From Candidatus Bathyarchaeota archaeon (GTDB taxonomy: Archaea > Thermoproteota > Bathyarchaeia > JAPDIZ01), in contig JAPDIZ010000002.1 in assembly GCA_029259355.1 (NCBI GenBank), positions 558,001 through 622,000 on the forward strand: a stretch of 64,000 nt of DNA, in the 5' to 3' direction. The translations under genes and the position numbers were made by a program. Positions 43,412 through 49,054 of the stretch are shown here, in pieces (position 1 is the stretch's first letter; every line of letters starts with the position of its first letter). A model generated the notes under the pieces. It searched no databases, was not told the DNA's origin, and saw only the letters and a program-made list of their open reading frames with translations.

Positions 43412-44257
43412 TTATCAAACGTAAAGCAGATCTCTACGAGAGTTGAGAGCGTCGAGTCGTTTGTCAGTGCTTTGCTTTCAACGCCCGGCGCTAGCGCTCA
43501 AGAGCTGAGGTCCCGGTACGAGCATACTCGCATAGCGATCGATCACCACACCATAGTCGTTTTCCGCAGCGGAGCAGTGGTTTTTCCCGAAGAGCAGAGC
43601 ATCATCTCCGTCGTTGAGGAAGCACTTAAGCGCTCAGAACCCTCGTGGAAAGGTGTGTTGGTTGGAAGCGACGAAGCTGGTAAAGGAGAGCGCGTAGGCC
43701 CTCTCGTAGTGGCGTCGGTGGCTTTGGAGTGGGAAAGCGCTATCGCGCTAAAGGCGAGGGGGCTTGTTGAGAGCAAGCACGTCTCCGCCAAAAGGCTCTA
43801 CAGGCTCGCTGAGCTAATTCGCTGCAAAGCGCTTGCTCACCACGTAGCCGTACTTGAGCCCAAGAAGCTCAATCAGCTCATGGCAGAATACAGGCGAAGA
43901 GAGCTTACGCTAAACGACCTCCTCGCTGAGCTCCACGCGGTCGCGAACATGGAGGTTTTGAAAATGCTTCCAAAAGCTAAGGAGGTGCGAGTAGTCGTTG
44001 ACTTGTTCGATGGGGAGAAAGTGGCTGCGGCTATGAAGCCGCTTGCGGAGGAGTGGAAGTTTGAGCTGGTGCAAGAGACTAGTGCAGAGAGGTATGCACC
44101 CGTAGCTGCTGCAAGCATTTTGGCGAGAGAAGCTAGGGAGCGCTGGCTAGAGAGAGCGTCGGAGAAGCTGGGGATAGACTTGAGGAAAGCGAGCGTTGAC
44201 GAAATCGCTCAGGCGGGAAGCCTCGAGGAGTACGTCAAGACGTTCTTCTCGGCGTAG
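43412..44257 (+). CDS. RNase HIII-like ribonuclease H, start uncertain
   Basis: Degrades RNA in RNA/DNA hybrids. The catalytic domain has GSDEAGKGERVGPLVVASV (DE motif), VVVDLFDGEKV (Asp) and the C-terminal AERYAPVAAASILARE, closer to HIII than to the usual archaeal HII. An N-terminal domain (VKQISTRVESVESFVSALL, HHTIVVFRSGAVVFP) resembles the HIII substrate-binding domain. The first canonical start is TTG 43472, which would cut this domain. GGAGGT at 43399-43404 lies seven bases before TTA 43412, so the true start may be a non-canonical codon there. The gene follows the stress-protein stop at once. Confidence 0.78.
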   Translation, partial: LSNVKQISTRVESVESFVSALLSTPGASAQELRSRYEHTRIAIDHHTIVVFRSGAVVFPEEQSIISVVEEALKRSEPSWKGVLVGSDEAGKGERVGPLVVASVALEWESAIALKARGLVESKHVSAKRLYRLAELIRCKALAHHVAVLEPKKLNQLMAEYRRRELTLNDLLAELHAVANMEVLKMLPKAKEVRVVVDLFDGEKVAAAMKPLAEEWKFELVQETSAERYAPVAAASILAREARERWLERASEKLGIDLRKASVDEIAQAGSLEEYVKTFFSA

Positions 44258-44265
44258 GTAATTCC

Positions 44266-45153
44266 CTATCGCTTACCCACTTCAGAGGCTATCTCTTGGA
44301 GATACTCGAAAACGCTGCACACTCTCGCATCGGGGATGTCCTCAACTCCTCCATCGCCTATTCTAAACCTTGCGCAGCGGTTGGTGGGCTGCTCAAGAGA
44401 TTTTTCGAGGATTGCGAGCTTGTCGCCAGAAGCGTTTTCGAGGGTGTATAGCCGGATCAGGTTTTTGGAGTAGTAGACTAGGTGCTGACCACCGATTAGG
44501 GGAAACTTCCACGCTCCAAGCCCAGCTTCTACATCAATAGCGCTCTCGCCAGATAGGATAGCCTTCACCGCTTCAGCTCTTCTGTGCTCAGCGAACGCAT
44601 CAGCAGCTGCGCTCCTCGTCCAAGTAACGATTATCGACGGAGCCTCGTAGGCTGAGGCTATGTGGAGAAGCGAGTTGATCTCGGTGCTGAGCTTTCCCTG
44701 AAGCTCCCTAGCCCTAGACGCTAGAACGTTGATGGGGGTGTTCAGCAGCTGGCCGTGGTAGATACTGGCTATGGAGTCTATGGCGAGTAGCAGGGGAGGT
44801 TTTTTGGAGGACTTCACCTCATCTCTTATCCTCTTCATCGCAACTTCGTGCTGCTCCCTCAGCTCAGTAACCTTGTAGAGCCTGAGATGCTCCAAAGCCT
44901 TGTTTGGGTCTAGCCCCCTCGCTTTAGCCATAGAGGCGAAGCGGGTGAGGCTCCACCCACCCTCGGTGTCGATGACGTAGGCGCACCTACCCTCTGCTTC
45001 GCCCGACCGAATGGCGTGGAGAATTGCCGACATTATTATGGTTGTTTTCCCCGTTCCGGGGTCGCCGTAGATGGTGTTGGTTACGCCAGCCAAAAACCCT
45101 CCACCCAGCAACTCGTCGAGCAATCGAGACCCGGTAGACAACCTGCTACTCAC
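44266..45153 (-). CDS. RadB-like RecA-family ATPase
   Basis: Recombinase paralogue of 295 residues, longer than typical RadB (about 220-230). Walker A is YGDPGTGKTTIIMSAI, Walker B LLLAIDSIASIYHG, with LLDELLGGGFLAGVTNTIYG at the start as in KaiC/RadA/RadB proteins; there is no N-terminal HhH domain. The last 70 residues (about 225-295) are not recognised. GTG 45151-45153 overlaps the TGA of the upstream gene (GTGA), so the three genes from 48345 down to here are one translational unit. Confidence 0.82.
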   Translation of the reverse strand: MSSRLSTGSRLLDELLGGGFLAGVTNTIYGDPGTGKTTIIMSAILHAIRSGEAEGRCAYVIDTEGGWSLTRFASMAKARGLDPNKALEHLRLYKVTELREQHEVAMKRIRDEVKSSKKPPLLLAIDSIASIYHGQLLNTPINVLASRARELQGKLSTEINSLLHIASAYEAPSIIVTWTRSAAADAFAEHRRAEAVKAILSGESAIDVEAGLGAWKFPLIGGQHLVYYSKNLIRLYTLENASGDKLAILEKSLEQPTNRCARFRIGDGGVEDIPDARVCSVFEYLQEIASEVGKR

Positions 45154-46547
45154 TCCAAACCCCCCTCCTCAAAGCTTGAGAAAGCTCTTCTCCCAAGCTC
45201 TGTGAGCGACAGCACTACGCTTCCATCTACTGGAGATATGTGGGTGGTGACTAGCCTCCTTCTCTCAAGCTCTCTCAAAACCCAGAGAACATCCTCAGCA
45301 TCGTGCTGTGGAAGAGCCCTTAGCAGAGAGAGCTTGGAGACCTGCCCACGCTCGGCTAGCTCAGCCAAGACATCCCTAGCAACCCTCGCCAAGCTCCCAA
45401 AATCCTCCCAAACACGCAGAGGCTCTTCAGGCGGCTTGGGGATGAGCCCCTGCTTTGACATGCGCTCCCTCAGCTCCTCGTAGCTCGGGGGCTCTGTCAG
45501 CAGCCACCAACCCCAGTCGATCGATACCAGAATAGGCGCCTTCTCCACCGGCGACTTGAGCACAGCACATTTGCTTGGAGCGCTTCGGTAGAAGGACCTA
45601 GCCTCGTAGGATAGGCCAAACCACTGGGAAAAAAGCGACCACTCCCTCGAATCGCTCGGCACATGCACCACCTTCGTCTCAGCGTAGGCTGCTGCGAGAG
45701 GATCTAGCTCGCAGATGGAGAAGCCACACAAAGCTATGGAGAGGCCGTAGACCTGCGCTTCCTCTAGTAGGAGGAGCTTTCGCAGATCCCTCCTATCCGT
45801 GGGAAGCATAGACCTATTCGCAAACAACGCCTCCGCACAGTCGAGCACAAATAGCTTGTTCTCCAAGCCACCGCTGCTCCTAGCCCACGCCAGCGCCTTT
45901 GCCAGCAAAACCGCTTGGACAAACGTTCTAGCGCGTAGGTCAACCACGTCTTCAGCAGAAACCACCGTCAAGCCCTTTGCCAGCTCAGACAACGGAACGC
46001 CTGCTCCCTCCACGAACGCTGTAAGCGCTCTCCTGAACAGGGGAGCGAAGGCTTCGGCCAGCGCAGAGCACTGAGCTACGCTTAGGGGGACGTGGACCTC
46101 TTCCTCCAAGTGCGCCTTCAGCGTTTCCAGAGTCGGCGTCGCACTTGGCTGAGACTCGTAGAGGCTGATCAGAGAAGCCTTGAGAGATGATTCGAGCCTG
46201 TCGGAAAGCCTGTAGGACTGGGCAAACGCCCAGGTCAGAAGCTCAGCGTAGTCGCACCCATCCAGGCCCTCCGGATACATGGGGTTGATCGCAACGGTGT
46301 CTCCGAGCTTGAGAAGCCTCGCACCCTCCACAGCTGCTAAGCCCCTAAACCTCCCGAAGAGATCTATCACCAACACATCGTAGCCAAGCTCCCAAGCAGA
46401 CATCGCCAAAGCCTGTGAGGTGAGGTAGCTCCTCGGACCATAGACGAGTACGTTGGATTCGAGCTCCTCTGGATACAGGTACTTTTCCCCAACCACGGCA
46501 CCGCTCTCAGGGTCGATTACCGCTCCGAGAAAAACAGCCTCAACCAC
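45150..46547 (-). CDS. HerA/VirB4-like protein with a degenerate P-loop and winged-helix C-terminus
   Basis: Protein of 465 residues. The N-terminus ESNVLVYGPRSYLTSQALAM resembles the HerA/DUF87 start, but the Walker A Lys-Ser/Thr is replaced (GPRSYLTS at 37-44); DVLVIDLFGRFRGL matches the HerA strand (DxxGxy-like), and KLFVLDCAEALF looks like a remnant Walker B. Residues about 390-460 form a winged helix (LSLLRALPQHDAEDVLWVLRELERRRLVTTH). It is probably a non-catalytic or altered-nucleotide ATPase partner. It overlaps both neighbours by several bases. Confidence 0.65.
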   Translation of the reverse strand: MVEAVFLGAVIDPESGAVVGEKYLYPEELESNVLVYGPRSYLTSQALAMSAWELGYDVLVIDLFGRFRGLAAVEGARLLKLGDTVAINPMYPEGLDGCDYAELLTWAFAQSYRLSDRLESSLKASLISLYESQPSATPTLETLKAHLEEEVHVPLSVAQCSALAEAFAPLFRRALTAFVEGAGVPLSELAKGLTVVSAEDVVDLRARTFVQAVLLAKALAWARSSGGLENKLFVLDCAEALFANRSMLPTDRRDLRKLLLLEEAQVYGLSIALCGFSICELDPLAAAYAETKVVHVPSDSREWSLFSQWFGLSYEARSFYRSAPSKCAVLKSPVEKAPILVSIDWGWWLLTEPPSYEELRERMSKQGLIPKPPEEPLRVWEDFGSLARVARDVLAELAERGQVSKLSLLRALPQHDAEDVLWVLRELERRRLVTTHISPVDGSVVLSLTELGRRAFSSFEEGGLE

Positions 46548-48345
46548 CTCTCGAACCCCCAGCTAGCCATTTAAGAACCAGCTCCAGCGGAGGTTTCTCG
46601 ACGTAGAGCGTGGGCTGAAGCCTATTGGTGATGAGCTCGCTAACCTCGACATCTGCTACGAAGGGCTGTGGATGTCCCCTGAAGTACGCCACGCATTTAG
46701 AGCCCCCTATTTGATTCAGCATCTCACAAATTCCTCTGCGCTCGCCTGCTTTGGGATGAACCCCTATAGCTGCGAGGAACTTTTCTAGCTCGCCCTCTCC
46801 CGGCATCCGGCAAAATACCACTGCCCAAACCCTTCTCCTCTCGGTAAGCACCTCATCTACGCTAGCCAAAGCGACAAAGGGCGCCTCACCTATTTCCGAA
46901 ACAACGCACCACCTCCCCAAAACCACCAACCCGCTTTCCTGCGCAAAGCCTCTGAGCACCTCCTTGAGCTCCTCCAAGCCTCCTCTCGCTCGCAAGATGA
47001 TACAGCGGTGTTTAGCCAACTCTTCACGCCTCAGCCCACCTAGTTCAGCTACCAAAACCCTCTCAACACACCTCTGAGCACCTTCCAGCAGCTCACCTCC
47101 CGTGTCCAAGCCCACTACGCGCACCCCTTGGCGCCTGCAAAGCTCTGCGAAAACCTGCTGAAGCATGTGCTTAGCCAAGCCCACCTCCCCCACGATGGCT
47201 ACCGACTTCCCGCAAAGGACGAGGGAAACCAGCTCATCCACTACATCCATAGGTTGAGCGGGACACACCTCCACAGCTTTGAGAAAGCTTTCGATGGCGC
47301 TGACTGCTTCATCGTAGCGGAGGTTTTGCCCACTCACAAAGCCTCTTTCACAGGTCCTGAACCCCCACAGCGTCAGCAGCGCTCTAAACTCGTCGATGCA
47401 TTCCTCGCTTCGCCAAGAGCTTGGAGAAGCCTCCTCCGCCAGCGAAACTAGAGCCGCGGAGAACCGCAGGCCCTTATTCGCCTTCTTTAACAACAGAGCA
47501 ACGCCCCCAGACTCGGCAAGCGCACCCCAACGCTCTTGTGGGGTTTTGAGGCGAGAGAGCGTCAGCACGGAGCCGTTTCCAAACTCAAGCAACCCCCTCC
47601 TCACCCTTCGAGGAGTTTTTGCGAACAAGACTAGGGCGAATGAGTCAAAGTCCTCAGGCTGCCTCAGCGGCCGAGCCACAATACCCTCTATCCTCGAAAA
47701 CTCTTGTGCGCAGGCTTTTGCTTGCTCAACCACTCTCTCATAGCCAGCTAACCCCATACGGTGGCAGTAAACCGCAACCAAGAATCGGCTTGGTCGCCTC
47801 GGGTTTTGGAAAACCCCGATCTCGACTCCTCTATCAACTAGCGAAGCAAGTGACTTGGCTAGGTCGCTAGCCCACCGCTCACCACCCACAACCTCAACCC
47901 TTACGAAGGACACTAAGCAGCGGCTGAGCAACCCAGTCTCTAACACCACAAGGACTCCGTCGACAACCGCTGGAAGGGCTTCGCCTAGTAGATGCCAGAG
48001 GGCTGTGGGAGGCAGCGAAGCTACGCAGCTGTTGAGTAAGCGCCTACGTAGCGATGAGGAGAACAGGGGCAAGCAAACAAGCGTAGGAGCTAGTAAGCAG
48101 TACACCCCCGATAGCCCAAGCTTCCTAATTAACGCAACAAGCAGCATCCAAACAAAAACTCCTATCACCTTGTCTGCATATCTCCTCCACTCAAACCGTT
48201 TCTCTTCCCTCGGCTCGCTACTACCTCTTCTCTTCCGACGCCTAAGTGGTCTGGAAAGAGCCTTCACCAATAGGTACGCGACGTAGAGAAAGACGAGAAG
48301 CACTAAGATCCTCAGCAACGAAGCAACTGGAGTCACCTCTTTCAC
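46540..48345 (-). CDS. Membrane-anchored VirB4/TraC-like protein with a degenerate P-loop
   Basis: Protein of 601 residues, not assignable to a family with confidence. Two to three membrane helices lie in the first 100 residues (LLRILVLLVFLYVAYLLV; VFVWMLLVALI; YCLLAPTLVCLPLF). A large soluble part follows, containing near residue 385 SVAIVGEVGLAKHMLQQVF, a P-loop-like turn lacking the G-K-S/T ending, then VVGLDTGGELLEGA. The plan, N-terminal helices plus an ATPase-like cytoplasmic domain, recalls VirB4/CedB-type conjugation proteins. Start GTG at 48343-48345 or 48334-48336 (GGTGAAAGAG upstream). Confidence 0.6.
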   Translation of the reverse strand: MKEVTPVASLLRILVLLVFLYVAYLLVKALSRPLRRRKRRGSSEPREEKRFEWRRYADKVIGVFVWMLLVALIRKLGLSGVYCLLAPTLVCLPLFSSSLRRRLLNSCVASLPPTALWHLLGEALPAVVDGVLVVLETGLLSRCLVSFVRVEVVGGERWASDLAKSLASLVDRGVEIGVFQNPRRPSRFLVAVYCHRMGLAGYERVVEQAKACAQEFSRIEGIVARPLRQPEDFDSFALVLFAKTPRRVRRGLLEFGNGSVLTLSRLKTPQERWGALAESGGVALLLKKANKGLRFSAALVSLAEEASPSSWRSEECIDEFRALLTLWGFRTCERGFVSGQNLRYDEAVSAIESFLKAVEVCPAQPMDVVDELVSLVLCGKSVAIVGEVGLAKHMLQQVFAELCRRQGVRVVGLDTGGELLEGAQRCVERVLVAELGGLRREELAKHRCIILRARGGLEELKEVLRGFAQESGLVVLGRWCVVSEIGEAPFVALASVDEVLTERRRVWAVVFCRMPGEGELEKFLAAIGVHPKAGERRGICEMLNQIGGSKCVAYFRGHPQPFVADVEVSELITNRLQPTLYVEKPPLELVLKWLAGGSRGG

Positions 48346-48487: not shown

Positions 48488-48913
48488 CTACTCGGTTCTA
48501 GCCCATAGGTGCTCGGGAAGCTCGTCGAAATCCTCTGCGTACTTTGCCACGTACCTCCCCCTAGCCGTTAATCGGGGGCGGTTTCCAGACCTACCGGGGT
48601 TTGCCCTAGGCGAGGACTTTGAGTAGCGGACCAACCCCATCTTGGCTAAGAGCTCCAAGTCACATCTGAGGGTTTTCTCGCTAACCCCAACAGCCTTAGC
48701 TAAGTCAGCTATGCAGAGATCTTCGTTGTGCACGAGGAGCTGCCTTAGCACGCGAAGCCTCCTGTTTTTTATGAGAGAGCACTCTCTTCTCAACGACTCC
48801 CTCAGAAGCAGCGGGCTCAACGCCTTTGCGATCTCCTCGAGGAGAGCTGCCTGCTTTGCCAGTAGGTGCTTGATCTCCTCTAGCTCGTAGCGTATGGAAA
48901 GGTCATCAGCCAA
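48488..48913 (-). CDS. Winged-helix transcriptional regulator
   Basis: DNA-binding protein of 141 residues from TTG 48911-48913 (GGTGG five bases upstream). Residues about 5-40 form an amphipathic coiled coil (SIRYELEEIKHLLAKQAALLEEIAKAL), residues 50-110 a winged helix (RVLRQLLVHNEDLCIADLAKAVGVSEKTLRCDLELLAKMGLVRY). It lies directly upstream of, and in the same direction as, the three-gene ATPase cluster and may control it through the GATATG repeats. Confidence 0.75.
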   Translation of the reverse strand: MADDLSIRYELEEIKHLLAKQAALLEEIAKALSPLLLRESLRRECSLIKNRRLRVLRQLLVHNEDLCIADLAKAVGVSEKTLRCDLELLAKMGLVRYSKSSPRANPGRSGNRPRLTARGRYVAKYAEDFDELPEHLWARTE

Positions 48914-49054
48914 CCTAACCACCGCGGGATTCTTGGAAAAAGGGGTATTTTGGGGTTTTTTAGGAGAAAAACTGAAGAAAAATCCCTGATTCTTTAGGGA
49001 AGCCCCTAATCTTCGCTTGGCGTCTCCATCAGCCAGAAGACTGATGCTTTAGCC

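Follow-up and report, generated by a model that had tools for sequence, protein, structure and literature searches.

The window, that is the whole stretch of 64,000 nucleotides analysed here (C1:558001-622000 of a 1.74-Mb assembly, for which the nearest sampled relatives are found only at class level), carries on its reverse strand an apparently co-transcribed unit of three genes. These encode a membrane protein (P1), a HerA-class protein without a working P-loop (P2) and an intact RadB-like ATPase (P3), as proposed in a preliminary description of this DNA. The coordinates given there match the ORF list, in which P1 and P2 overlap by 8 bases and P2 and P3 by 4 bases. The features are listed below; CedD, with which several of them are compared, is the ATPase (NF053655; SiRe_1715) that partners CedB in the Ced system (PMC11868833).

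46540..48345, (-): P1, ORF of 601 aa with membrane segments, a middle domain and a C-terminal half that is weakly CedD-like and degenerate
47167..47190, (-): best Walker A match in P1, GEVGLAKH, residues 386-393, from a weak hhalign alignment (P 0.01-0.02)
45150..46547, (-): P2, ORF of 465 aa with a CedD-like ATPase core lacking a P-loop and a C-terminal winged-helix-like region
46419..46439, (-): residues 37-43 of P2, GPRSYLT, at the Walker A position in the alignment to CedD, with no GK[ST]
45168..45410, (-): C-terminal winged-helix-like region of P2, approximately residues 380-460, recognised by family conservation and absent from CedD
44266..45153, (-): P3, ORF of 295 aa, a recombinase ATPase of RadB-like type that lacks the N-terminal HhH domain found in RadA
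45043..45066, (-): Walker A of P3, GDPGTGKT, residues 30-37, intact
48488..48922, (-): winged-helix (ArsR-like) protein of 144 aa (Pfam HTH_5, 4.6e-6), upstream of the trio and on the same strand

Inspection of the list of ORFs around the trio and of their hydrophobic segments revealed no evident multi-span channel of the CedA/VirB6 type and no evident pilin gene of the CedA1/TedC type. A second copy of the operon was not seen among the sampled genomes of the window's own class, and it is therefore patchy there. Contamination was considered and is made less likely by the genome's own RadA (L080:7904-8896; 454 bits with TIGR02236), which lies on the same contig and groups in the tree with the RadAs of its class. 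This true RadA has no CedD-like neighbour.

Pfam and NCBIfam searches with P1 and P2 returned nothing informative, PDB sequence searches with the two proteins gave chance matches only, and direct queries produced no match in the genome contig collection (P1 and P2) or in the viral contig collection (P2). Single-sequence AlphaFold models of P1 and P2 were unusable (pLDDT 42 and 38, respectively). Distant relatives of P2 were recovered by a phylum-wide protein search, one of which (G175) is near full length at 28-29% identity. In hhalign comparisons P2 alone matched a profile of intact CedD-type ATPases (A2; 98.9%, E 1.3e-17), and so did a seven-member profile of the P2 family (A1; 99.9%, E 1.1e-35), the latter also matching HerA structures in the PDB (3.2e-9). 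For a further relative (L057) the best NCBIfam match is NF053655, 'DNA-translocating ATPase CedD' (2.8e-18, under the 600-bit cut-off of the model), which shows P2 to be nearer to CedD than to canonical HerA. The preliminary description had been reminded of the Ced/Ted systems and had suggested a profile search for an ATPase fold; the search found that fold in P2 and narrowed the resemblance to CedD in particular.

Where CedD has its Walker A, P2 reads VYGPRSYLT, and none of the aligned members of its family has GK[ST] at this column. In the same hhalign alignment, DC stands opposite the acidic EE pair of the CedD Walker B and QV opposite the invariant RK pair. Judged by its sequence, P2 is a P-loop-less relative of CedD with a HerA/VirB4-class core, and has presumably lost ATPase activity, although the loss of Walker A is still compatible with nucleotide binding. 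The winged-helix-like region of about 80 residues that follows the core gave a weak Pfam wHTH match in the G290 relative.

As for P3, matches were obtained to Pfam Rad51 (7.4e-17), to the RadB model TIGR02237 (9.6e-28; 97.5 bits, under the 172.4-bit equivalog cut-off) and to the RadB structure 2cvf in the PDB (1.5e-22). The profile match begins at residue 4-5, in keeping with a RecA-type core that has no N-terminal HhH domain, and the RadA model TIGR02236 gives 67 bits against a cut-off of 361, again with no N-terminal extension. P3 has an intact Walker A, GDPGTGKT, as had been described. With the recombinases of family f31 it has 37-41% identity and distinctive motifs in common. The possibility that P3 is simply a recombinase paralogue typical of its class was rejected, because no class match exceeds 63 bits and the class paralogues included in the tree branch outside the P3 clade.

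Genes were called around profile matches in about 400 genomes of one phylum, and each ATPase was sorted by the presence of a P-loop in its ATPase domain. Our analysis revealed 42 P-loop-less (hereafter dead) CedD-like loci in 14 families. A recombinase gene lies immediately downstream in 40 of them, with at most one small gene between, and in the other two (G175 and G449) the visible downstream DNA ends at a contig edge. Among the intact-P-loop relatives examined, the same linkage was found in 0 of 71. Fisher's test for this difference (4e-31) ignores relatedness and uses loci picked from profile matches, and should be read as a strong association and not as a probability; the arrangement is far beyond chance. 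The linkage of the genes in distant relatives also answers the question of neighbourhood conservation raised in the preliminary description.

The downstream recombinase is a true RadA in 27 loci and a member of the window's RadB-like (P3) clade in 13. The tree groups the 13 P3-type proteins in a clade with a support of 0.98 and, in a separate clade, the 26 operon RadAs that could be used (support 0.92). When genomes were instead selected for a P3-type recombinase (E <= 1e-50), a dead CedD-like gene was directly upstream in 13 of 13. The dead ATPase and recombinase genes overlap or abut in the P3-type loci; in the RadA-type loci a gap of approximately 260-355 bases precedes RadA, usually with a small gene in it. 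This small gene (L057:7941-8318; L059:7289-7666; L063:1301-1702; L073:6594-6932) is conserved, encodes about 100-133 aa, matches no Pfam family above cut-off and is absent from the window's operon. In G284 the gap is 641 bases and the ORF is shortened, and in G214 the copy is divided between two frames. A tree of the ATPases sets the 71 intact sequences apart from the dead ones without exception (support 0.97), which fits a single ancient inactivation, though long branches could give the same split.

Regarding P1, its hydrophobic segments (near residues 1, 55, 76 and 123) are N-terminal; in the window the membrane segments and the N-terminal domain are carried by P1 and not by the P2 chain, a single chain being found only in family f50. 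Comparison of P1 with the CedD profile gave weak hhalign values, with P 0.016 when all of P1 was used and 0.0096 for its C-terminal part on its own; among ten shuffled controls the best value was P 0.21. The weak alignment of the C-terminal half spans about 50 residues around the P-loop, with GEVGLAKHM followed by LDTGGEL against LDWHGEY of CedD, and within GEVGLAKH the Lys is kept and the preceding Gly and the following Ser/Thr are lost. A relationship of this half to CedD may therefore be regarded as a lead, not as proof. The preliminary description held that both proteins retain the HerA/VirB4 layout and lack the Walker A Lys. Both statements stand for P2; in P1 the layout is only weakly detectable and, as far as a weak alignment can tell, the Lys seems to be present.

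No match to P1 was found among 60 relatives. The protein in the P1 position of G175 (L056:1390-3402) has an intact P-loop (GGKSSGKT), matches DUF87/HerA at 2.5e-6 and CedD in hhalign at 97.9%, and shows no direct similarity to P1; paired as it is with a dead P2 partner, it could possibly reflect an intermediate state. In the RadA-type operons the P1 slot is occupied by a membrane protein of about 184-252 aa, and a four-member profile of these proteins (A3) matches the N-terminal domain of CedD (E 1.4e-5). The protein in this slot measures 451-454 aa in f31 and 355-357 aa in f40. Family f50 has a single fused protein of 693-697 aa (L164:6195-8276; L165:7793-9886), which unites the membrane segments with the dead ATPase and the winged-helix-like region. 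The motifs GYRWVGKS and GYKWIGKS of the two f50 proteins were considered as P-loops and rejected, as they precede the equivalent column, and the proteins were counted as dead ATPases by judgement.

CedD is essential for DNA import, and CedB and CedD have been proposed to act jointly as the VirB4 equivalent, in a model that leads from import straight to homologous recombination (PMC11868833). Imported DNA serves recombinational repair, probably as single-stranded DNA (PMC9905601). On another contig of the window genome (C3; L077:3765-9460), an intact CedD-type gene ends a locus that resembles a type IV pilus cluster and encodes a T2SSE ATPase, a T2SSF-like platform and small membrane proteins; a P-loop kinase resembling adenylate kinase adjoins the CedD-type gene. 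A similar arrangement is seen in L060, L062, L064 and L147, and the position of CedD at the end of these loci indicates that it is paired there with a pilus machine. At E <= 1e-40, intact CedD-type genes were detected in 35 of the 42 operon genomes, as compared to 133 of 398 overall, and not in the remaining seven operon genomes, several of which are incomplete assemblies. The operon is absent from many genomes that have intact CedD, presumed Ced users among them, and is therefore not required for import in general.

We propose that the operon encodes a membrane-anchored complex in which a dead CedD-like scaffold takes imported DNA and loads a recombinase, a reading to which we give a probability of roughly 0.4. 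P1 would be the membrane anchor and P2 a dead CedD-like subunit whose winged helix binds DNA; the ATP-using recombinase would be P3, replaced by RadA in most relatives. The complex would dock at or near an active import machine, which in the window genome may be the separate CedD-plus-pilus locus, would catch the incoming single-stranded DNA and would then load P3 or RadA onto it. In bacterial transformation ComFA and DprA pass imported single-stranded DNA to RecA, and the putative complex could be the archaeal counterpart of this hand-over, a comparison made by function and with no homology claimed. The proposal is based on the homology of P2 with CedD, the loss of the P-loop in all members and the difference in linkage (40/42 versus 0/71), which holds for two separate recombinase clades. 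It is also favoured by the fusion of membrane segments with the dead ATPase in f50, by HerA and NurA lying just beyond the operon in one f31 genome, by the essential role of CedD in import, and by intact CedD residing in a pilus-like locus and being found in 35/42 versus 133/398 genomes. The seven operon genomes without intact CedD and the weak relation of P1 to CedD weaken it.

Recombination at the membrane unrelated to import appears to us an unlikely alternative. The dead protein would in that case tether RadA or RadB near HerA-NurA, for the repair of internal breaks or the positioning of chromosomal DNA. It is favoured by the presence of RadA, the housekeeping recombinase, in 27 loci and by the seven operon genomes without intact CedD at the cut-off used. 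Moreover, on the far side of the operon's wHTH regulator the f31 locus L137 carries genes for HerA and NurA close by (L137:10030-12693), and four other f31 genomes (L131, L132, L134 and L136) carry an intact HerA-like gene there. However, the greater closeness of P2 to the import ATPase than to canonical HerA argues against it, and general repair is not known to need membrane anchoring.

Still less likely, in our opinion, is a membrane-tethered regulatory role, in which the dead protein and a wHTH protein would sense DNA or damage and control the amount or activity of the recombinase without handling DNA. In 33 of the 42 loci a gene for a wHTH protein lies within about 4.5 kb; this gene is commonly divergent, and its product mostly has 2-4 membrane segments. 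P2, too, has a winged-helix-like region at its C-terminal end. In the window, the protein at 48488-48922 matches the regulator profile (7.3e-6), has no predicted membrane segment and is probably the counterpart of the membrane-bound regulator near other operons. Nevertheless, the core of P2 retains the full CedD-like domain beyond any DNA-binding part, and regulation alone would not explain the dedicated recombinase that the P3-type genomes retain in addition to RadA.

According to the preliminary description, RadB would be the motor of a DNA-translocating complex and P1 and P2 its structural parts. P3 alone has an intact Walker A in the window, but its role as a motor for translocation finds no support. 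Proteins of the RecA/RadA family assemble into filaments on DNA, and the same slot is occupied in 27 relatives by RadA, a strand-exchange filament protein. We therefore prefer to read P3 as a recombinase to which DNA is delivered. A RadB motor, which we consider improbable, is also at odds with the intact CedD that the window genome has elsewhere beside pilus genes, and with the P-loop kept in the P1-position protein of G175. A defence module recognising incoming foreign DNA, to which the extra C-terminal helical region of the f50 fused proteins (HEPN-like by eye) might point, is very improbable given that the partner in most genomes is the housekeeping RadA.

Compared with known systems, P2 and CedD have the HerA/VirB4-class core in common, and the RadA-type membrane proteins resemble the CedD N-terminal domain. 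The differences are that P2 lacks the P-loop and has a winged-helix-like C-terminal extension, that the CedD-like parts are split over two genes in most lineages and that a recombinase partner stands in place of import or pilus genes. Similarly, P3 has a RecA-type core with intact Walker A and RadB as its nearest family among RadB and RadA (TIGR02237, TIGR02236), and differs from RadB in scoring far under the equivalog cut-off and in forming its own clade with distinctive motifs. A HerA-superfamily protein encoded with recombination genes is also known from HerA-NurA and from the HerA-like genes at Ted loci, for which coordination of import and repair has been proposed (PMC9905601). However, the Ted-locus proteins are described as helicases encoded with rad50 (PMC9905601), whereas here the ATPase has no P-loop and its partner is RadA or RadB-like.

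A description of this operon was not found in the open-licence PMC literature or in the Ced/Ted papers, most subscription papers and preprints being outside this scope, and we provisionally regard it as previously undescribed. The route by which Ced-imported DNA reaches a recombinase is likewise not described in the Ced/Ted papers (PMC11868833, PMC9905601). Our tentative view, held at somewhat less than even odds, is that of an archaeal complex, undescribed and widespread, whose membrane-anchored import-motor relative, itself inactivated, would load RadA or a dedicated RadB-like recombinase onto incoming DNA. If true, this would supply the step that is missing between DNA import of the Ced type and homologous recombination. 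The sharing of an operon by a recombinase gene and an inactivated import-motor relative, across many families and with two recombinases, makes it a concrete and genetically testable candidate for that step, and suggests that a motor has here been reused as a scaffold. In addition, archaeal RadA is given an operon partner that is conserved and open to direct testing.

Finally, an RNase H gene on the opposite strand (window 43472-44257, (+)), which scores best as RNase HIII (86 bits, against 68 bits for RNase HII, both under cut-off), lies tail to tail with P3, the two ends being 8 bases apart.
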